Source: an uncultured Bacilli bacterium
GTDB lineage: Bacteria; Bacillota_I; Bacilli_A; RF39; UBA660
NCBI GenBank assembly: GCA_947628235.1
Contig: CANQZC010000003.1
Span: 1 to 64,000, forward strand
Direction of reading: 5' to 3'
Length of the DNA stretch: 64,000 bases
Numbering within the stretch: the stretch's first letter is position 1; every line of letters begins with the position of its first letter. The notes beneath the pieces were generated by a model that ran no database searches, was not told the origin of the DNA, and saw nothing but the letters and a program-made list of their open reading frames with translations. This document shows positions 2,846 to 24,768 of this stretch, piece after piece. The position numbers and the translations under genes were made by a program.

Positions 2846-3174
2846 TGGTGGAACCGCGGAGAATTGCACTCCGGTCCTGTCATACTACTTAATTAATATT
2901 CATTCACGACCATAGTTACTTTATCAACTTCGCTATATCCAAAAGCAACAAAGAATATAACTTGTGAACGAACTTATAAGCAGTGCGGCAGGTGATTCGT
3001 TCAAACCTACCGCACCGTTCCACAGAATTTAAAAATCTATAATTTGATATGTGGAGTTCAAATTATAGGCAATGGCTAAGCCGCCATTGGAAGTTCATCA
3101 TAATATTCGTCAATTATTATTTGAAGTTTAGTCGCATATTAATCTTTTGTACCCAGTCGATCCTAATCGGCCCC
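2846..3174 (-). ncRNA. ssrA: Phage-encoded tmRNA
   Basis: 329 nt. The 5' end GGGGCCG pairs with CGGTTCC at the 3' end, including the G3.U70 pair that marks alanine charging, and is followed by A73 and encoded CCA. The 5' region GATTAGGATCGACTGGG matches the conserved tmRNA start. A tag frame ends DEYYDELPMAA then TAG inside the hairpin AATGGC...GCCATT, as in tmRNA helix 5; if GCG is the resume codon the tag is ATKLQIIIDEYYDELPMAA. Downstream, stem CTATAATTTGA/TCAAATTATAG has loop TCCACA pairing with TGTGGA, and stem GTGCGGTAGGT/ACCTGCCGCAC has loop TGAACGAA pairing with TTCGTTCA: two H-type pseudoknots. It rescues stalled ribosomes and tags the nascent protein. The 5' end is 5 nt after the upstream gene's stop codon, so it is probably processed from that transcript. 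Confidence 0.94.
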
Positions 3175-10598: not shown

Positions 10599-11315
10599 TT
10601 ATTTCTTGGGATACACCTGTAAGATCGTATCGTGTAGTGTTAGAATTTTATTGTTCCAAATTTGATCAGTTGGATAACCGCCAGTAAACCATAGATTATA
10701 ATGAAAATTTAAATAGATAACTTCTAAGAAACGTTCGGTGCGGGTGATAGGATAATGTTTATCGAAGAGTACGTTCATTTGATATATAATAGAAGATGGA
10801 AAATTATAGGATAAAATTGTATCAACAGAATTAATTGAAAGCAATAGTTCTTTAAGTTTTTCTGTATTTATTACCGGTCCGTTATTCTTCTTATCTATAT
10901 ATCTTTTTGCCTCTTGAAATGAATTACAAACATTAGATACAGATGATGTTGACGCTCCCGGAATTGTGAGGAACTGTTGCCTATGTATGTTTAGCAGGGA
11001 TGGCTCATTAATAAGATATATTGTTTCATAGGTTTTATTTCCGATAGTAAGCCGCCGCAATGTTGTCCCATACTTTTGAATTTTTGGCATTTGTTGGATG
11101 CGGTCATAATTATTTTGGCATCCCCGCAATATAATAGTGTTCCATTGTTTGTTTTCTAGGAATTGTAATTCATATTTATCTGCATCGAGCGGAAAGTCTC
11201 CTAATATAATAATAGTATCAGTATCATCGAGCTCCCGCAACTTAGGATTAACGTTAAAAGAAAACCTATCTGTCGGATTATGTTCAATAGAGCCAGTTAG
11301 GTATATTTTATTCAT
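10599..11315 (-). CDS. Degenerate calcineurin-like phosphoesterase (active site lost)
   Basis: 238 residues that follow the layout of the small phosphoesterases common in phages and mobile elements, but with key residues replaced: the GDxHG motif reads GSIEHN (8-13), the second Asp motif keeps ILGDF (37-41), GNHE has become RGCQNN (64-69), and the late His motifs read YNFP and TGGYP. The scaffold segment LTIPGASTSS matches the family's FxxGGAxS strand. So it is probably a catalytically dead homolog kept for binding, or a decaying gene. Its start overlaps the end of the 93-aa gene by 8 bp. Confidence 0.7.
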   Translation of the reverse strand: MNKIYLTGSIEHNPTDRFSFNVNPKLRELDDTDTIIILGDFPLDADKYELQFLENKQWNTIILRGCQNNYDRIQQMPKIQKYGTTLRRLTIGNKTYETIYLINEPSLLNIHRQQFLTIPGASTSSVSNVCNSFQEAKRYIDKKNNGPVINTEKLKELLLSINSVDTILSYNFPSSIIYQMNVLFDKHYPITRTERFLEVIYLNFHYNLWFTGGYPTDQIWNNKILTLHDTILQVYPKK

Positions 11316-16430: not shown

Positions 16431-16599
16431 AGAAACATGCTCTACTTGTATATATTATGCGGGAGGTAGTTGTCACCGTTATCCAGAAACTATTGTGAAG
16501 AGAAAGAGCGATTGGTGCGGGGAACATCGTAAAGAAAATAAATATGATACCACAATTACCTATAACCGTCCATTAGAAGTTAGTACTGTTCTATTATAG
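16423..16599 (+). CDS. Small Cys-rich protein (58 aa)
   Basis: ATG 16423 overlaps the initiator stop. CSTC, GGSC, YPET, DWCGEH give a four-Cys pattern (C-x2-C-x7-C-x14-C) seen in many small phage proteins, probably metal-binding. Unknown function. Confidence 0.7.
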   Translation: MNKETCSTCIYYAGGSCHRYPETIVKRKSDWCGEHRKENKYDTTITYNRPLEVSTVLL

Positions 16600-16610
16600 T
16601 TAGGATAATA

Positions 16611-17642: not shown

Positions 17643-17727
17643 AGATTAAACTATAAATATATTTAGATGATTAGATATGAAAGAATATTAACTATGGACC
17701 TAAACGATGTAGATTTTATAGCATGCT
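17643..17727. other. AT-rich spacer before tandem repeats
   Basis: No gene or clear signal seen; leads into the repeat array. Confidence 0.5.
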
Positions 17728-17887
17728 AGTGAATTTCCTGTGATATTAATGAATTTGATGTTGTGCCAGTGAATTTCATAGTATACCAATAAATTTGATA
17801 CTGTGTTAGTGAATTTCATAGTATGTCAATGAATTTCATAGTATACCAGTGAATTTCATAGTATATCAGTGAAACTGGGTGTCACAT
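17728..17887 (+). repeat. Eight tandem 20-bp repeats
   Basis: Units begin exactly every 20 bp at 17728, 17748, 17768, 17788, 17808, 17828, 17848 and 17868. The core is AGTGAATTTCATAGTATACC with variants; the last unit is degenerate (AGTGAAACTG). A strict two-helical-turn period suggests a protein-binding array such as a plasmid centromere, iteron or repressor array. No open frame crosses it usefully. Confidence 0.85.
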
Positions 17888-18035
17888 TATACAACCAGCA
17901 GTCAAGAAAAATTTTTGAAACAAAAACCAAGACCGAGAAATTTATGTCTTTGCGAATTTTGAGTCTCCCTTGTACAATATCTTGTATTTTTGAGATAACA
18001 TCTTTTTCACATATTTTGTATCACTTCCGATACGT

Positions 18036-18114
18036 TAATCGGAAATTTTTACGAGACGAGTATTTGTCCGTCTTAACTAAAAAGTGCAAAATTTCCGATT
18101 AAACCTGCTCGTCT
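18036..18114. other. Interleaved inverted repeats (possible H-type pseudoknot)
   Basis: TAATCGGAAATTTT (18036-18049) pairs with AAAATTTCCGATTA (18088-18101), and AGACGAG (18054-18060), inside that loop, pairs with CTCGTCT (18108-18114), outside it. The A-B-A'-B' order is that of an H-type pseudoknot if transcribed. No gene lies here. Confidence 0.6.
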
Positions 18115-18149
18115 AAGGGAATGTCAAAGGCAACCGCCGCAGTCACATC

Positions 18150-18250
18150 TCAGAATTTTCATTTTGGAATCTTAAAATAAAATTTTCATTTTTGAGTCTC
18201 GCATATAAATTTTCATTTCTAAACAAAACTCATTTTCACTTTCACTCTTG
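18150..18250. repeat. Imperfect AATTTTCATTT repeats
   Basis: Copies at about 18154, 18180 and 18207, roughly 26 bp apart, and a CATTTTCACTTTCACTC tail at 18230. A similar run is at about 22928. Probably AT-rich binding repeats; function unknown. Confidence 0.45.
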
Positions 18251-18266
18251 GTTATAATAAATATTG

Positions 18267-18296
18267 TTGACAGCAGATAAATCACTATGTTATAAT
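18267..18296 (+). promoter_or_regulatory. Rightward consensus promoter (first of two)
   Basis: TTGACA, 18 bp spacer, TATAAT. A GGGAGAGG sequence follows but no gene starts there; about 200 nt of leader precede the next gene. Confidence 0.8.
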
Positions 18297-18389
18297 ATAT
18301 AATGTCAAGAGGGAGAGGTAATTAAAACTTTTCCGAGTTCCGCCGGCAGAGCTTAAAAATCTTGACACCAACTGTTAAGAAGTTTATTC

Positions 18390-18419
18390 TTGACAATAGC
18401 ATCAAAGATATGCTATAAT
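18390..18419 (+). promoter_or_regulatory. Second rightward consensus promoter for the winged-helix gene
   Basis: TTGACA, 18 bp spacer, TATAAT. The leader then holds the hairpins AGGGGA-TGGCC-TCCCCT (about 18434-18451) and GCCC-TTGCTA-GGGC (18463-18476) before the ribosome site, features that could control translation. Confidence 0.8.
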
Positions 18420-18499
18420 ATAAATATAGAAAAGAGGGGATGGCCTCCCCTTAAAACAACGAGCCCTTGCTAGGGCAGGATTGCAAAGGAGCAAGTAAA

Positions 18500-18880
18500 A
18501 TGGCTGAGGTTAAAGTTACGCGCAAGGATCTGTTCACCTGGATGCGGGATGTGCTTAACGAGATTTCTTGTAATGATGAAGAGGACGAAGCAAAGCGTGG
18601 TCAGGCTATCGCTATGTGCGAGAAGTATGTTGAGCAGCTTAGCAAGGCCCGCAAGCCCACTGTGAACAAAGAGGCGGAAAAGACCGCTGATGAAGTTGCG
18701 GAGCTCATTGCGGCAGGTGGCCCTGACAAGGCTTGGACCGCTAAGGATATTGCGGCAGCTGCTGGTGAGATTTCTGTGCAGAAGGCTGCGGCGGCACTGC
18801 GGAAGCTCGTGCAGCGTGGTACTGTGACGATGCTGGAGAAGGAGCATAAGAGCGATCCTAACTCCTACCAGATGGCTTAG
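18500..18880 (+). CDS. Winged-helix DNA-binding protein, paralog A (126 aa)
   Basis: ATG 18500 after AAAGGAGCAAGTAAA. N-terminus TRKDLFTWMRDVLNE and a helical region, a Lys/Pro-rich linker (about 52-62), then a winged helix (residues about 75-120: KAWTAKDIAAAAGEISVQ, ALRKLVQRGTV, wing). The N-terminal motif and layout match the leftward gene at 20058, so they are paralogs. GC-rich, host-like codon use and two strong promoters suggest high expression. A regulator or chromatin-like protein acting on the nearby repeats is a reasonable guess, not shown. Confidence 0.75.
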   Translation: MAEVKVTRKDLFTWMRDVLNEISCNDEEDEAKRGQAIAMCEKYVEQLSKARKPTVNKEAEKTADEVAELIAAGGPDKAWTAKDIAAAAGEISVQKAAAALRKLVQRGTVTMLEKEHKSDPNSYQMA

Positions 18881-18903
18881 TAGCTATCTGACTTACTTTA
18901 GAG

Positions 18904-18931
18904 GTGGGGCTCGCAATGCGGCGGGCCCCAA
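18904..18931 (+). promoter_or_regulatory. Intergenic hairpin
   Basis: TGGGGC and GCCCCA arms enclose about 12 nt; no T-run, so attenuation or mRNA end protection rather than full termination. Confidence 0.5.
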
Positions 18932-18962
18932 TAGAGATTAGATAAGAGGGTTGGAGTATTGA

Positions 18963-19424
18963 GTGAAGTATACTTTTGTAGATGATGCTGGTCATAAAAG
19001 AACAGTTAATATTCCGCAGGAGTATATTACTCTGAATACTCATGCTTTAGGTATTACTGAGCAAGAAGCTATTGATATGTGGCTTAGTGATGAAGGATAT
19101 ATAGTTAATCCGGTCGTCCAAGAGCTAACAGAAAAAGCTAAACAAAATGGTGTAGGTAGCGCGGGAGTGGCTAGTAGACCTAAGAATACACGAAGACAGG
19201 TCGCCCGCAAACCAGACTATGAAAAACGATGGTTGATTGAATACGCGGCAGAAGCCCTTAAGAATGTCGTTAACGGTGAGCCCGCGTATTGGAATAGTGA
19301 TGAAAAGATCGAGCTGCCGCACTTAGATAATATCGAGATTACCAATCCAGAGCGTATAATCTCTTTCACTCTTGGTGAGAATGATTACAGCTTTACTCTT
19401 ACAAAACATCGTAAGAAAAAATAA
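18963..19424 (+). CDS. Uncharacterised protein with basic middle (153 aa)
   Basis: GTG start after GGAGTATTGA. N-terminal alpha/beta (MKYTFVDDAGHKRTVNIPQE), a basic disordered linker with GVASRPKNTRRQVARKP (about 69-85), and a C-terminal beta-rich part (IISFTLGENDYSFTLTKHRKKK). The N-terminal MKYTF...VNIPxxYI...EAIxMWLSDEGYI pattern occurs in Clostridial phage proteins; function unknown. Strong terminator follows. Confidence 0.7.
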   Translation: MKYTFVDDAGHKRTVNIPQEYITLNTHALGITEQEAIDMWLSDEGYIVNPVVQELTEKAKQNGVGSAGVASRPKNTRRQVARKPDYEKRWLIEYAAEALKNVVNGEPAYWNSDEKIELPHLDNIEITNPERIISFTLGENDYSFTLTKHRKKK

Positions 19425-19455
19425 TATAATAAATTCACATTCTTTCCTTTCTCTT

Positions 19456-19493
19456 GGAGCCTTACTTTGTGGTGGAGTAAGGCTCTTTTTTTT
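19456..19493 (+). terminator. Strong rho-independent terminator
   Basis: GAGCCTTACT / AGTAAGGCTC (10 bp) followed by TTTTTTTT. Confidence 0.92.
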
Positions 19494-19528
19494 ATGCGGC
19501 GACCTGTTCAAATATTTTTTTAAACAGA

Positions 19529-20008
19529 AGTTAGCTTAGGTTAACTTTTTAAAAGCGTATATTAGGTTTTAGGAAAATTTATGCGGCTAGAGCGTATAGG
19601 CCCTGATTAACAAAAATTGGGCGTATAGGTGAGCGACCGACCTCACCGCCGTAAACGGCGGGTTTACGAACATCTGTTCTATAGTTAACCATGGTAAACT
19701 TTTTAATAAAAAAATGTTAACTTTGACTAACTTTTAATAGTTAACCGCAGTAAACTTTGTTAGGTTTTAGGAAAATTGTGAATTTTTTGTGAAAATTGCG
19801 GATTTCGCTTGATTTTTTCGTGCATGTGTGGTAAAATCGCCGGCAATTGTGGAAATTTTGTGAATTTTTTGTGAAGATACTTGACAAAATGCGCGTTTTG
19901 TGCTATGAAAAGTTAACTATGACTAATTTACAATAATTAACTGCGGTTTACTTTTTCTTGGAAGAGTTAACCTTGACTAACTCACTCATTGTTAACCTTG
20001 GTTAACTT
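19529..20008. promoter_or_regulatory. Cluster of eight palindromic GTTAACC-type sites
   Basis: Sites near AGTTAACC-NN-GGTTAACT at 19529-19547, 19683-19700, 19714-19733, 19739-19757, 19911-19929, 19936-19953, 19964-19982 and 19991-20008 in 480 bp without any gene. Between them are a probable promoter (19809-19837) and repeated phrases such as GGTTTTAGGAAAATT (19565, 19758) and TTGTGAATTTTTTGTGAA (about 19783 and 19856). Confidence 0.8.
19809..19837 (+). promoter_or_regulatory. Rightward promoter-like element, copy 1 of 3
   Basis: TTGATT, 17 bp spacer with CGTGCATGTGTGG, TAAAAT, then CCGGC. Homologous to the elements at 21381-21410 and 21795-21823. No gene follows on this strand. Confidence 0.5.
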
Positions 20009-20026
20009 GGGTGCATAGGAAAAGCC

Positions 20027-20047
20027 CGCATTGCGCGGACTAATCCT
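20027..20047 (-). terminator. Terminator of the leftward winged-helix gene
   Basis: Minus strand GTCCGC-GCAAT-GCGGGC followed by TTTT, just past the stop at 20058. Confidence 0.7.
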
Positions 20048-20057
20048 AAATTTTAAT

Positions 20058-20459
20058 TTAATCGGTATCCGCTCCCATCATCTCGGGCGTTCCATAGACC
20101 GTCGTTTTCTTTGTGGCGTCACTTACAAGCAAACCGCGCTTTACACCACGCCGAAGCAGTCCCGTGGCTTTCTGAACAGTCCGCACAAAAGGAAAGTTTT
20201 CAAGCACTTCACGAGCGGAAACCGGCTCCCCATGTTGACGCACCCATTCGACAATTTTATCAATATCATTGTCGTTTTGAATCTGCTCTTTTGTGCGGCT
20301 GTCCCCGCTCTTCTTTACGGGTTTGTTCATTGCGGTTTCCCATTTTGTGAGGGTTTCCACCATATCGGCGGGCATATTATCCGCGAAGTTCTCACGGATA
20401 TACGCAAGCAGTTCTTTACGTGTAGGGTTTTTCGTGGTGGTGGTGGTGTTCTCGGTCAT
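20058..20459 (-). CDS. Winged-helix DNA-binding protein, paralog B (133 aa)
   Basis: ATG after AAGGAAAGAAC. A Thr-rich N-terminus, then TRKELLAYIRENF, matching TRKDLFTWMRDVL of the 18500 gene, a helical segment, a Lys-rich linker, and a winged helix (about 70-120: VEWVRQHGEPVSAREVLENF, ATGLLRRGVKRGLLV). GC-rich codon use like paralog A. The upstream region carries the inverted repeat GGATAA-N7-TTATCC that could be an autoregulatory operator. Confidence 0.75.
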   Translation of the reverse strand: MTENTTTTTKNPTRKELLAYIRENFADNMPADMVETLTKWETAMNKPVKKSGDSRTKEQIQNDNDIDKIVEWVRQHGEPVSAREVLENFPFVRTVQKATGLLRRGVKRGLLVSDATKKTTVYGTPEMMGADTD

Positions 20460-20522
20460 GTTCTTTCCTTTCCTTGACCGTGGAGGATAATCTTTTGTTA
20501 TCCCCTCTTGACAACTATTATA

Positions 20523-21266
20523 TTACTCGCTTTCGTTTGACTTGTCAATACTTTTTTGAAACTTTTTTAGCCATTCTTGAAACTTTTTTTGCGGGCGTTG
20601 CCACGCGCCACGAGCAGGAATAGTTGTAGCTTTTTTATGCTTTCTACGTTTTCCCTCTTGTAAAATCTTAAGTTCTATGATACAATCAGAAAGTGCGGTG
20701 TGCTCTTCTTGAAAACTTGCATCATTGATAAGAAAACCGTAAACCGCTTGTGCGTTAGTTGGCAATTTTCCCGTTTCAGTAAGCAATTTATTTTCAACAC
20801 AAAATTGAAAATATTTTTGTAGCTTGCAAATAGTTTCAGCTGCTAGCGCTTGCGTACAATGCCATTGCACACCATAGGGAACAAAGAAACCGCAAAACCC
20901 ATTAGAGTATAATTTAATCGTGTTATTGAGTGCTTTACGATCAAATACCGCATTATGCGCCCAAACTTCTCTAATCTTGTAAGTTTCACAATCCCTTGCA
21001 AACTCACGCCATATTGTGATAAGCGGTTCAATAGTTAGACTACGGTTTGCAAGTTCAGCATAATAAAGCGGCAACTTTTCAGCATAATAGCACGTTTTCA
21101 TTAAATCGGCGTTACCGTGCCACGTTTCACTAACTAAAGCCTGATAAGATTTAACTATATTAAAATCTTTATCGGCTACAACCCATCCAATATCGTACAC
21201 AATAGGCGCGTCAGTTGTTCCCGCGGTTTCAGTGTCAATGAGAATACGATACAAAACCCAATCCAT
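20523..21266 (-). CDS. DEDD-family 3'-5' exonuclease (DnaQ-like)
   Basis: 247 residues. Exo I DTETAG (Asp11, Glu13), Exo II VWAHNAVFD (Asp109), Exo III EEHTALSD (His189, Asp194): all catalytic acidic residues and the DEDDh His are present. Proteins of this type proofread DNA or trim RNA; a stand-alone phage copy may support replication. The basic C-terminus (about 205-247) is extra. AAAGG abuts the ATG, so initiation may use the TTG at codon 5. Upstream lies a 650-bp regulatory region. Confidence 0.88.
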   Translation of the reverse strand: MDWVLYRILIDTETAGTTDAPIVYDIGWVVADKDFNIVKSYQALVSETWHGNADLMKTCYYAEKLPLYYAELANRSLTIEPLITIWREFARDCETYKIREVWAHNAVFDRKALNNTIKLYSNGFCGFFVPYGVQWHCTQALAAETICKLQKYFQFCVENKLLTETGKLPTNAQAVYGFLINDASFQEEHTALSDCIIELKILQEGKRRKHKKATTIPARGAWQRPQKKFQEWLKKFQKSIDKSNESE

Positions 21267-21380
21267 CCTTTACTATCGTTTTGCCTTGCCAACGTTGACA
21301 AGTATTATATTAAGGGATGCGGCCACCATTGTCAAGCGTCAATAGCAAAGTTTTTTAAAAATCTTTTTTCAAAAAAGTTG

Positions 21381-21410
21381 TTGACAATAGGTTGCGGGCT
21401 ATGGTACAAT
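21381..21410 (+). promoter_or_regulatory. Rightward promoter-like element, copy 2 of 3
   Basis: TTGACA, 18 bp spacer ending GCGGGCTATGG, TACAAT. Followed by AGGGAGG and a 20-codon frame, then the palindrome at 21502 with a T-run, which would act as a terminator or operator. Confidence 0.65.
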
Positions 21411-21679
21411 AGAAATATAGAAGGGAGGATGAAAGATAAGGAACATAAAATGCGGCTGCGGGATGCTGTTACCCGTTGCAAGACAGTGTAGAATAATTTT
21501 AAGTTAACCACGGCTAACTTTTTTGAAAGTATCACTTCCATTATATCATAGTGGGCTGTGGCAGTCAAGCTCTGTTACTATTTTGTAATAAGTTAACCTA
21601 GGTTAACTCGTGGGCAGTTTTCACTCTCCCGCAATGAGTTGTCAACTTGGGGATGGCCTTGCTTGACCTCACGATTAGA

Positions 21680-21708
21680 ATAATACTACTATGCAAACCA
21701 AAAGTCAA
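21680..21708 (-). promoter_or_regulatory. Leftward promoter with duplicated leader, copy 1
   Basis: TTGACT (plus 21703-21708), 17 bp spacer, TATTAT (plus 21680-21685). The promoter and following leader (21638-21692) match 23123-23178. Confidence 0.6.
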
Positions 21709-21794
21709 TAGAAAAATGCGGCTGTTACCTTTTTGTAATAAGTTAACCTAGGTTTTAGGAATTGTGAAGATGTTGTGAAGATTACAATTTGTCC

Positions 21795-21823
21795 TTGACT
21801 TTTTTGCGGGCGTGTGGTACAAT
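21795..21823 (+). promoter_or_regulatory. Rightward promoter-like element, copy 3 of 3
   Basis: TTGACT, 17 bp spacer TTTTTGCGGGCGTGTGG, TACAAT, then an inverted pair around CCGGC. No gene follows on this strand. Confidence 0.6.
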
Positions 21824-21902
21824 TTTCACCGGCTCACACGCGCGTTTTGATAAACTTTCATTATATCATGCGGCGGTTGTGCTGTCAAGTACTTTTTTAC
21901 AA

Positions 21903-21932
21903 AAAAATAAGCGGCCATTACTGACCGCTTAC
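21903..21932 (-). terminator. Terminator overlapping the stop of the 70-aa gene
   Basis: Minus strand TAAGCGG / CCGCTTA arms followed by TTTTTTT; the stop codon lies in the loop. Confidence 0.85.
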
Positions 21933-22130
21933 AAGAATAGATGATCGAATATTAACATTTGATGAACCGTCAATAATATAAGTAATACACTCATCATCAT
22001 AATCTGATTGACTGTAATTTAAACGCAAAATATTTTCTATTATATCTTCAATATTATCAAGGTCTGACAATGCGTTTTCTTCGTTTGGGTCTATTACTTC
22101 AATAGTAAGTTGATAGATTTCTCTAGTCAT
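21918..22130 (-). CDS. Small acidic protein (70 aa)
   Basis: Overlaps the nucleotidase gene end by 8 bp. Beta-alpha-beta-like (EIYQLTIEVIDPNEENAL ... DDECITYIIDGSSNVNIRSS). No family recognised; cotranscribed with the nucleotidase. Confidence 0.68.
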   Translation of the reverse strand: MTREIYQLTIEVIDPNEENALSDLDNIEDIIENILRLNYSQSDYDDECITYIIDGSSNVNIRSSILVSGQ

Positions 22131-22575
22131 TGTAGCACAACCTTTCTAATGATGCAAGCATTCCGTTAAAATTAGTTGCGTCGATAGTTTCCCCTTTCCA
22201 TTGCTTGCGCACGTCCGCGTTATCGTCTACTAAAATAGCATCTTTAATTTTACAATAGCGACGTTTGGGTGTTCCATATTTAATTATATGGCATTCTGAT
22301 ACCATAGGCAAGTGTTTTTTTAACCAACCTTTCTTTACTTGCCTTACTCGCCAGTCATAAGCATAGCTACTATTTTTAGCTAACCAACTAACTACTCCGA
22401 TAGTGTACCCTAGTTCAATGAGTTTGTCAAGCACTTTTTTAAGTTTTTTCATACTGCCTAATGGGCGTGCTTCACAATAAGGCATTGCATCATGATTATT
22501 TAATCGTTGCTCCCATTGTGGCACGTCATACAAGCCCGCTAATGTTCCATCCATATCAAAATAAATTGCTTTCAT
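22123..22575 (-). CDS. HAD-type hydrolase, 5'(3')-nucleotidase-like (150 aa)
   Basis: HAD motif I DMDGTLAG (Asp7, Asp9), motif II VVSW (Ser63), motif III Lys about 104, motif IV ILVDDN (Asp117, Asp118). The size and single small cap resemble deoxyribonucleotidase-like phage enzymes that dephosphorylate nucleoside monophosphates. Start ATG is in an overlap with the membrane protein gene upstream. Substrate not determined. Confidence 0.85.
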   Translation of the reverse strand: MKAIYFDMDGTLAGLYDVPQWEQRLNNHDAMPYCEARPLGSMKKLKKVLDKLIELGYTIGVVSWLAKNSSYAYDWRVRQVKKGWLKKHLPMVSECHIIKYGTPKRRYCKIKDAILVDDNADVRKQWKGETIDATNFNGMLASLERLCYND

Positions 22576-22823
22576 TATAGCACACCTACCAAAAAATAGC
22601 TAGAGATAATTCCAACCGTGATAGCGGTCATTGAAGCGTTTTTAATTTTATCCGCGTGCGGGCGTCCTAATTTAAAGTCTCTTATTAGAGCGATAGCATT
22701 CGATACTAGCCAAATACCCTGACCCAACAAAAACCATGCACCTACTACACACTGACCGACAATTGTCAAGGCCAAAACAACTAATTGAAGTTGCTCCCAT
22801 ATTTTTCTATGCTGCTCCCGCAT
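22575..22823 (-). CDS. Small membrane protein (82 aa)
   Basis: Two to three hydrophobic segments (about 12-32, 33-46 and 64-82) with basic loop DFKLGRPHADKIKNA. ATG after AAAGGAAAC. Upstream TTGACA (plus 22872-22877) with TATCCT 17 bp away is a probable promoter. Function unknown. Confidence 0.7.
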   Translation of the reverse strand: MREQHRKIWEQLQLVVLALTIVGQCVVGAWFLLGQGIWLVSNAIALIRDFKLGRPHADKIKNASMTAITVGIISSYFLVGVL

Positions 22824-23165
22824 TTCAGTTTCCTTTCTTTTGGTGAGATAAGGATACTACCATTTTAATTTTTTGTCAAGCGGAATCCCAAAAATATTTT
22901 TTCAATTTCAAAAGTGAGTCTCGGTTTACAATTTTCATTTTCATTTTTACTAGTCACAATTTTAAACTTTCAATTCTAACATAAAAATTAAATATTATGC
23001 GGCAGTAGCATAAAAATATATTTTGTCAAGGGTTAGCATGAAAAATTATTTTGTCAAGTAAAATTAGAAACTTTCATAAAATCTTCATAAAATAAAAAAC
23101 AGAATTATCTATCTTGCAATCAGTAGTTAACTTGGGATATTGTCTTGCTCAACCTGACAATTAGA

Positions 23166-23194
23166 ATAATACTACTATCATTCTAGTTTGTCAA
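23166..23194 (-). promoter_or_regulatory. Leftward promoter with duplicated leader, copy 2
   Basis: TTGACA (plus 23189-23194), 17 bp spacer, TATTAT (plus 23166-23171). The leader matches copy 1 at 21638-21692 (about 80% by eye). Confidence 0.65.
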
Positions 23195-23212
23195 ATACTT
23201 TTTTTAGAAAAT

Positions 23213-23262
23213 AAAAAAAATGAGCGGCAGGACTGTCTGTCTACCACCGCTCACCTTTGTCT
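23213..23262 (-). terminator. Terminator of the leftward unit at 23284-23430
   Basis: Minus strand TGAGCGG...CCGCTCA with loop of about 20 nt and a following run of eight T. Confidence 0.85.
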
Positions 23263-23283
23263 AATATTATTGTAGCATACTTT

Positions 23284-23430
23284 TTAGAGTGTCGCAAGTA
23301 TTAAACCACAATTTAATAACGCGGCTGCTGCTATTTTCTTTCCTACTGAACACGGATAACAGAATAAAATATAAGCACCTCCCATTATCATACAACCGCT
23401 AATAATTACGCTTGCCAACAATGCTAACAT
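23284..23430 (-). CDS. Small membrane protein (48 aa)
   Basis: MLALLASVIISGCMIMGGAY... then a second hydrophobic stretch (KKIAAAALLNCGLILATL). Two short membrane segments. Weak ribosome site AAAGAAAGAA. Follows the 100-aa gene. Confidence 0.6.
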   Translation of the reverse strand: MLALLASVIISGCMIMGGAYILFCYPCSVGKKIAAAALLNCGLILATL

Positions 23431-23448
23431 GATACTATTATTCTTTCT

Positions 23449-23751
23449 TTAGATAATATCGTTTTGTTCATCCTCCCGCCATTCATTATAACAAATAATA
23501 GCTATCTCAATACAATCATCAATAGACAATGCGGGGATATTATTACGACCGTGGAGTAATTGCGCGCAAGTTTGCACCATTAAAAAGACTTCCATCAAAC
23601 GAGCTTTTTTATTATCTGACTTACTTATCTCAATATTTTTGTAAGTCATAATACTTTCAAGCCAGTAATAATATTCTTCCGTGTTCCAAATATGATAATA
23701 CACTTCTTTTTGATCGTCCGTCAAGTCCTCAAAGATAAGTTGCGAACTCAT
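23449..23751 (-). CDS. Uncharacterised acidic helical protein (100 aa)
   Basis: Mostly helical, Trp/Tyr-rich (HIWNTEEYYYWLESIMTY; CIEIAIICYNEWREDEQ). ATG in MSSQLIFEDLTDDQK; AAAGGTTCTAATT upstream. A TTGACA/TAACCT pair (plus 23791-23819) is the likely promoter. Unknown function. Confidence 0.68.
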   Translation of the reverse strand: MSSQLIFEDLTDDQKEVYYHIWNTEEYYYWLESIMTYKNIEISKSDNKKARLMEVFLMVQTCAQLLHGRNNIPALSIDDCIEIAIICYNEWREDEQNDII

Positions 23752-23834
23752 AATTAGAACCTTTCTGTTAGGTGTCTTTCTCTTACTGCTATTAGGTTAT
23801 CATAGGTGTTTTATTTTGTCAAGCACTTTTTTAA

Positions 23835-23924
23835 TTAAAGCAGTAATTTAATAAGTGCATAGGATACACAAACAACAAATGACAATCCCGTGATAATTGC
23901 GAGGATGATATACAATACTAACAT
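23835..23924 (-). CDS. Single-pass membrane peptide (29 aa)
   Basis: MLVLYIILAIITGLSFVVCV then a short tail. Strong ribosome site GGGAGG 8 nt before ATG. Lies between two soluble-protein genes. Confidence 0.6.
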   Translation of the reverse strand: MLVLYIILAIITGLSFVVCVSYALIKLLL

Positions 23925-23941
23925 TTTAGAAGCCTCCCGCA

Positions 23942-24208
23942 TTACGTGAGGCGTCGCCCGCACCACGGGCAATAATCTACTTTAGTATCAATGAATACAG
24001 GTTTGGTAACAAGCATGTTTAAGTGACCGCCAAACAACGGCACGGTTTCGTTCACAACTTTGTTAGTGGCAACTTCAAGGTACCAACCATGACGAGAATG
24101 CGTCACGCCAAAATAGATAAGTACGCCCTTATCCCCATAGGGATTGTCCATCGTAGGATAGCTGATCGAAGTATCGGCGCTAGTGTCATTATCGCAGTGA
24201 CAGCACAT
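23942..24208 (-). CDS. Zinc-finger protein (88 aa)
   Basis: ATG 24208 (MCCHCDND) after GAAAGGAAAAAC is preferred over an upstream in-frame ATG. Cys pairs CCHC at the N-terminus and CPWCGRRL at the C-terminus close one zinc site around a beta-rich core (IYFGVTHSRHGWYLEVATNK). Typical of Firmicute phage proteins of unknown role. Confidence 0.72.
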   Translation of the reverse strand: MCCHCDNDTSADTSISYPTMDNPYGDKGVLIYFGVTHSRHGWYLEVATNKVVNETVPLFGGHLNMLVTKPVFIDTKVDYCPWCGRRLT

Positions 24209-24768
24209 TGTTTTTCCTTTCTCTATTGGATGATTATAGATTATCATCTTTGTTAGTTTTTGTCAAGAACTTTTTTTATTTTATTTTGTAAGATTTTTTA
24301 ATGGCCGTAATTCACAGGATTTTCTATTATAGCGTGATTAACAGAATAATGCAATATATATTAGTAGACAAATGTTACTCATGAATATATGTTCACGTGT
24401 CCAAATGAACATATGAACAGACGTTCATAAGTACAAATGTTCGTTTGTCAACCGTGGCTTACTTTACAAACAAATGTTCGATAGAACAAATGTTCGTTTG
24501 TTTACCATAATTAACAGTTCGTACAAATGTTCTGTTGTTAACCGTAGTTAACTATGACCGCATTACTCAAAGTTAACTATAGTTTACTTTCTCCTTTCTA
24601 GCCTATTCCCATACGGTACCCATGTTACTACGCAATTGTGGAGATTGGGTAACGGGAAGGTAACGGCGCTAGTTTCTCGTCGGTTTCGTGCCTTGTGCGT
24701 GCTAATATACATAGTGTCAGAAACGACAAGGGACGTTGATATAACGGAATAGAGAGGGAGTGTTTCAC
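24209..24768. other. 560-bp noncoding control region upstream of parS
   Basis: From left to right: a leftward promoter (TTGACA at plus 24256-24261), then the ACAAATGTTC/G-type box cluster (24361-24535), GTTAACC palindromes at 24448-24465, 24500-24515, 24537-24553 and 24571-24588, direct repeats GGTAACGG (about 24646 and 24657), and the parS palindrome. No gene on either strand is supported. Confidence 0.65.
24361..24535. promoter_or_regulatory. Cluster of GAAC/GTTC operator-like boxes
   Basis: GAACAGACGTTC (24415-24426) and GAACAAATGTTC (24484-24495) fit GAAC-N4-GTTC, the core of the Gram-positive LexA (DinR) box. ACAAATGTTC occurs five times or nearly so (about 24367, 24432, 24470, 24486, 24522). 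ATATGTTC...GAACATAT makes a wider palindrome at 24387-24414. Could be bound by host LexA or a phage repressor. Confidence 0.65.

Follow-up and report, generated by a model that had tools for sequence, protein, structure and literature searches.

Repeated phage operators are already known. In the Bacillus phage SPBeta a 15-bp repeated element, SPBRE, is bound by MrpR, a prophage repressor with a recombinase fold (PMC10516654), and the stoperators of cluster A mycobacteriophages are described as asymmetric, genome-wide sites at which the repressor stops elongation (PMC9283540). Here we describe another repeated word, the palindrome AGTTAACC-NN-GGTTAACT, in a 64,000-nucleotide stretch of DNA from an uncultured Bacilli bacterium (the window; positions 1 to 64,000 of contig CANQZC010000003.1, assembly GCA_947628235.1). 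The window makes up the first 64 kb of C3, a contig of 113,259 bases in a 1.6 Mb genome bin, and judging from its genes C3 is a phage, a large gut phage with a terminase like those of Enterococcus phage EF1 and Geobacillus virus E3. In our assessment the palindromes are probably operators of a regulator that the phage itself encodes.

The locus shares features with both systems and departs from both. As with SPBRE, many copies of one word stand between genes, in the promoter regions of a large phage of Firmicutes, and the C3 terminase is distantly related to YonF-type terminases; unlike SPBRE, the C3 word is an 18-bp palindrome with an NN centre, appears to prefer upstream positions, and occurs on a contig where we found neither a tyrosine nor a serine recombinase gene. 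Set beside stoperators, the likeness is that one binding word is repeated at many places in a phage genome, whereas in C3 the sites are palindromes and all fall within 19.5-24.6 kb (a 5-10 kb block across phages). New here are the word itself, the fact that it keeps to a single control block, the upstream position that it takes in some relatives and, in one relative, its complete exchange for another word.

Results

The preliminary description of this stretch had reported at least 14 such palindromes, eight of them in the noncoding interval 19529-20008 and none well inside a gene, and all of this holds. We find 14 imperfect full-length copies and two half-sites, all intergenic and within 2 bp of the positions first given. 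The full-length copies form three groups (19529-20007, 21502-21608 and 24446-24588), and the half-sites stand separately:

19529..20007, no strand: cluster A, eight palindromes (starts 19529, 19683, 19715, 19739, 19911, 19935, 19965 and 19990) lying between two convergent genes
21502..21519: palindrome AGTTAACCACGGCTAACT; relative to the start predicted for the leftward promoter 21568-21540, its centre is at about +22
21591..21608: perfect palindrome AGTTAACCTAGGTTAACT; relative to that same start, its centre is at about -66
21741..21758: half-site AGTTAACCTAGG-TTTTAG, at about -76 from the leftward promoter 21708-21680 (by arithmetic from the promoter coordinates)
23126..23133, no strand: remnant half-site GTTAACTT
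24446..24588: cluster C, palindromes at 24446, 24499, 24536 and 24571, alternating with ACAAATGTTC repeats

The region of half-site 21741 is 94% identical over 33 nt to a stretch at 21572. All 14 copies lie clear of coding sequence, which by our scoring fills 61% of the block. Shuffled sequence, which had been named as a place where the proposed regulon could fail, does not reproduce the count: at up to three mismatches over 16 positions the window holds 10 copies, a number not reached in 100 dinucleotide shuffles (mean 0.30, maximum 2), and on the whole contig it is reached by 0 of 199 control palindromes built from the permuted half-site. Elsewhere on the 113 kb contig there is no copy at up to three mismatches. 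The whole-genome motif search that had been proposed returned two matches at two mismatches in the 1.6 Mb genome outside the contig, which is chance level (a control pattern read backwards gives 5 in all), and the word is absent at up to one mismatch from 192 other genomes of the host family. A host regulator is therefore unlikely.

Across 59 copies the consensus is AAAAGTTAnCCNNGGnTAACTTTT, and the two halves do not covary: pairing is no better than with the right halves shuffled among copies (P = 0.94), a pattern expected if the half-sites were contacted independently by a protein dimer. This lack of covariation makes RNA hairpins or terminators unlikely. Bidirectional termination or RNA hairpin formation might be read from the A/T flanks that extend the palindrome and from the T-runs that follow some copies, for example 21502 and most copies in the related phage G2. 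The predicted hairpins, however, are weak, mostly 0 to -8 kcal/mol against -13 to -16 kcal/mol for three GC-rich hairpins of these phages, and only 5 of the 14 window copies have at least four T directly downstream, in keeping with the earlier remark that T-runs are missing at several sites and that the sites are not terminators in general. On the weak energies and the lack of compensatory change between halves we rejected this explanation, which we regard as very improbable. Another early remark, that variation falls mostly in the right half, describes the window slightly (14 left and 20 right mismatches) and is reversed in one relative (26 and 9).

The word also occurs in relatives. G2 (130.6 kb, colinear with C3) was reached by an exact-word scan of IMG/VR, and further relatives through alignment of capsid-region genes. 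Lack of conservation had been the second point on which the regulon might have failed; the word is found in five relatives (19 copies in G203, 12 in G2, 6 in G201, 5 in G197 and, weakly, 3 in G200), and in all five it is confined to the same syntenic block, between the genes for p15657, the winged-helix proteins and p18963 on one side and the sigma-factor and terminase genes on the other. Counts exceed all 199 permuted-half controls in C3, G2, G203, G197 and G200, while in G201 one control equals the count; in G1, G202 and G199 the word occurs at chance level only. The corresponding block of G202 holds six copies of a different word, ACCGAAG-NN-CTTCGGT, of equal geometry and with the same NN centre, and elsewhere on that 104 kb contig this word has no match at up to two mismatches. 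Because related phages carry the word, and G202 has another word where it would stand, we think it very probable that a DNA-binding protein which controls genes of the phage itself lands on it.

In G203 (L061/L062) six palindrome pairs have a spacing of exactly 36 bp and AGATCT or GCCGGC halfway between the partners, which gives alternating sites every 18 bp. G2 (L036/L035 joined) also carries, at 16468-16605 and 17673-19978, TTTACA-NN-TGTAAA, partly as a 32-bp tandem array, and ACTCTACTGYGGTGGAGT. The IMG/VR scan further returned G003 and G004 (L037-L041), a related pair that, on a few of their proteins, look T7-like and have 10-12 copies of GTTAACC-NN-GGTTAAC scattered genome-wide; neither has a credible relative of the winged-helix genes, and we take this to be a separate, independent use of the word.

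A second palindrome class shares the NN centre and sits among the AGTTAACC copies:

19668..19679, no strand: GAACA-NN-TGTTC, also at 24484; GAAC-N4-GTTC at 24415

It recurs in G2 (16419, 16436, 18158, 21919 and 25466) and in G197 (7-8 copies). The LexA (SOS) box of Firmicutes is CGAAC-N4-GTTCG, which GAACA-NN-TGTTC resembles; this class is not the AGTTAACC word, however, and no CGAACnnnnGTTCG was found in the host bin outside C3, and so an SOS-box reading of it was rejected.

The position of the palindromes relative to promoters bears on what they do. Promoter-like sites and the direct repeats that accompany some of them lie in the window as follows, with one target gene:

19777..19837, plus strand: TGTGAA direct repeat (11-bp period), then rightward promoter-like TTGATT-17-TAAAAT
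19848..19910, plus strand: three TGTGRA repeats (11-bp period), then TTGACA-17-TATGAA; palindrome 19911 directly after
20523..21266, minus strand: DnaQ-like exonuclease gene, towards which the two leftward promoters (palindromes at -66 and -76) point
21540..21568, minus strand: leftward promoter-like site TTGACT-17-TATAAT
21680..21708, minus strand: leftward promoter-like site TTGACT-17-TATTAT
21763..21823, plus strand: TGTGAA 11-bp direct repeat, then rightward promoter-like TTGACT-17-TACAAT

Over seven phages, measured from predicted starts, the interval -92 to -74 holds nine palindrome centres where jittering gives 1.5 (0/2000), and one falls in the promoter core (-50 to -5), where 4.7-8.5 would be expected. 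A smaller subset lies just downstream, at +16 to +36 (21502 in C3, 21761 in G2, 2192 in G197 and 4958 in G200), and palindrome 19911 coincides with a predicted start. TGTGRA pairs are spaced by 11 bp and by no other recurring distance (4 in C3, 11 in G203 and 3 in G202, with none in shuffles), and in G202 and G203 the order of palindrome, 11-bp TGTGAA/TATGAA-type repeats and promoter can be read by eye. Sites of OmpR/PhoP-type activators are likewise direct repeats with an 11-bp period just upstream of a promoter. The TGTGRA repeats of C3 share this period and position; they differ in that no response regulator was identified and that the palindromes make up a second, separate element.

Several points weigh against the operator reading. 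The promoters are predictions only in all seven phages, the position bins, -92 to -74 included, were set once the numbers had been seen, and seven of the nine sites at -92 to -74 come from G202 and G203. The relation to promoters is strong in these two phages and mixed in the window, where only 21591 (-66), half-site 21741 (-76) and 19739 (-96) stand upstream of strong predicted promoters, and several copies in clusters A and C have no strong promoter nearby.

Beside these promoters, the window has an open frame on the scale of 21 codons (21429-21491) with a ribosome-binding-site-like sequence, behind a TTGACA-18-TACAAT promoter; over 51 nt, the region of this promoter and that of the 18467 promoter share 75% identity.

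Two other readings were considered, a replication origin and partition. If cluster A were a replication origin and the palindromes its initiator sites, one would note that the cluster is compact, lies in a convergent noncoding gap, and adjoins a conserved GCGTATAG-containing element recovered by alignment in several relatives, and that the phage has replication genes of its own. The copies, however, are spread over 5 kb here and 10 kb in G203 and track predicted promoters of separate operons, and of the copies in G203 (up to about 20) many are paired 36 bp apart, so we think an origin improbable. Partition or spreading (parS-like) sites, which the preliminary description had offered as one option, would account for a palindrome cluster repeated near one locus. 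This option is not supported: no ParA-type AAA_31 (PF13614) gene was found on the contig, where ParB was not searched for, and the copies track predicted promoters. We regard partition as very improbable.

The noncoding element in the cluster A gap (19563-19680), with GTTTTAGGAAAA and GCGTATAG repeats, sits between the p18963 gene and the minus-type winged-helix gene and is conserved in the equivalent gap of G2, G201, G197, G200 and G203; it is possibly an origin or a small RNA.

Which protein would read the word is a separate matter, and the candidates flank cluster A:

18467..18880, plus strand: winged-helix protein, plus-type paralog, candidate reader; first of a conserved gene pair with 18963
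18963..19424, plus strand: 153-amino-acid protein (p18963), whose relatives adjoin a winged-helix gene in this and other large phages
20058..20459, minus strand: winged-helix protein, minus-type paralog, candidate reader

The proteins from 18467 and 20058 belong to one family, being members of the same alignment. The AlphaFold2 model of the 20058 protein (predicted local distance difference test score, pLDDT, 90) has a winged helix at about residues 57-125, with best Z values of 9-10 over about 60-75 residues to winged-helix chains; modelling covered this protein only, and the 18467 protein is assigned through the shared alignment, so that a winged-helix fold is supported for both on a predicted structure. 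Searches of Pfam and PHROGs gave one weak match for 18467, to a PHROG of unknown function, and none for 20058 and 18963.

The earlier suggestion that these paralogs read the palindrome gains from the fold and from their presence in every phage with the word: each of the six carries a single plus-type copy, with a p18963 relative next after it, and one to four minus-type copies. It loses from two further adverse observations. Phages that lack the word have members of the family too, often with a p18963 relative alongside, and the recognition helix of the minus-type protein in G202 is nearly the same as its counterparts in word-carrying phages, though the palindrome of G202 differs. For these two reasons the link is unproven, and we put the family forward tentatively, as candidate readers only; within it the plus-type 18467 protein is the likeliest. 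On the G202 contig, which may be incomplete, we found neither a plus-type copy nor p18963. Among conserved genes restricted to phages with the word, none inspected looked regulatory (10599-11315 is metallophosphoesterase-like in relatives, and L005:18504-19046 is radical-SAM-like). Two-gene modules of winged-helix and p18963-like genes, often in several copies, are also seen in other large phages (L103-L110).

The remaining evidence concerns the phage itself. The large terminase of C3 is 42-53% identical to those of a fecal phage fragment, Enterococcus phage EF1 and relatives, Geobacillus virus E3, an Alicyclobacillus phage and phAss-1, and the contig encodes replication and nucleotide-metabolism genes, transfer RNAs (tRNAs) and a transfer-messenger RNA (tmRNA). 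The phage-encoded tmRNA gene lies at 2846-3174 of the window and adjoins several tRNA genes. No end repeat was found on C3, so the contig may be incomplete.

Discussion

The view that the palindromes are operators is supported by their conservation in relatives, by the replacement of the word in G202, by a palindromic form whose halves do not covary, by their location between genes and by where they lie relative to promoter-like sequences. These features are read from the sequence itself; that a protein binds the sites, that it is a dimer and that the phage encodes it we infer. Each palindrome would be a double-stranded DNA site bound by a dimer of the regulator, which would coordinate small early genes that form a block of leftward operons, the one with the DnaQ-like exonuclease among them, together with the short promoters in between. 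Copies 66-120 bp upstream of starts may act together with the 11-bp TGTGRA repeats that lie between palindrome and promoter, in an activator-like manner or through looping, whereas copies just downstream of starts may damp transcription. Activator-like action from upstream is our best guess.

A classical repressor would have the opposite sign. On that account an immunity or lysogeny repressor, or a protein that switches off middle or late genes, shuts early promoters through SPBRE- or stoperator-like sites, a variant of the operator explanation that differs in sign and lifestyle and that we hold possible though rather doubtful. The copies at +16 to +36 in several phages and the one on a predicted start would suit it, as does the precedent of SPBeta, whose repeated element is bound by the master repressor MrpR in promoter regions (PMC10516654). 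The avoidance of promoter cores does not suit it, nor, for a lysogeny repressor, does the gene content: no tyrosine (PF00589) or serine (PF00239) recombinase gene was found on the possibly incomplete contig, all matches of the genome lying on other contigs, and no HTH_3 (CI-type) repressor gene was found on C3, with the reservation that a degenerate recombinase fold such as that of MrpR could escape the PF00589 model. Because no integrase or CI-type gene was found on the contig, lysogeny repression is kept as a rival reading only. Lysogeny may nevertheless occur in the wider phage group, since Alicyclobacillus phage KKP 3916, a distant relative of the C3 phage, is described as temperate (PMC10297869). 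The operators of a phage repressor proposed in the preliminary description thus stand in part: conservation, the swap and placement favour operators of a phage regulator, while core avoidance, enrichment about 80 bp upstream and the finding of no integrase or HTH_3 gene on the contig give no specific support to repression.

We find it tempting to speculate, without much confidence, that these phages form a gut and rumen group with a promoter class of its own, in which a palindromic operator about 80 bp upstream and 11-bp direct repeats precede a promoter that is often weak at -35, and in which the operator is read by phage-encoded winged-helix paralogs. Within such a group the word would have been exchanged wholesale (GTTAACC-NN-GGTTAAC for ACCGAAG-NN-CTTCGGT) at fixed geometry, which would amount to operator-specificity switching in phages apparently without a lysogeny module.

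Should operators of a phage-encoded regulator be the right reading, the master control word of a set of little-studied large gut phages would now have a name, and the genes that are switched together could be predicted from it. The upstream placement suggests activation rather than immunity, and the swap of one word for another at unchanged geometry would be a natural experiment on how phage regulators and their operators change specificity.

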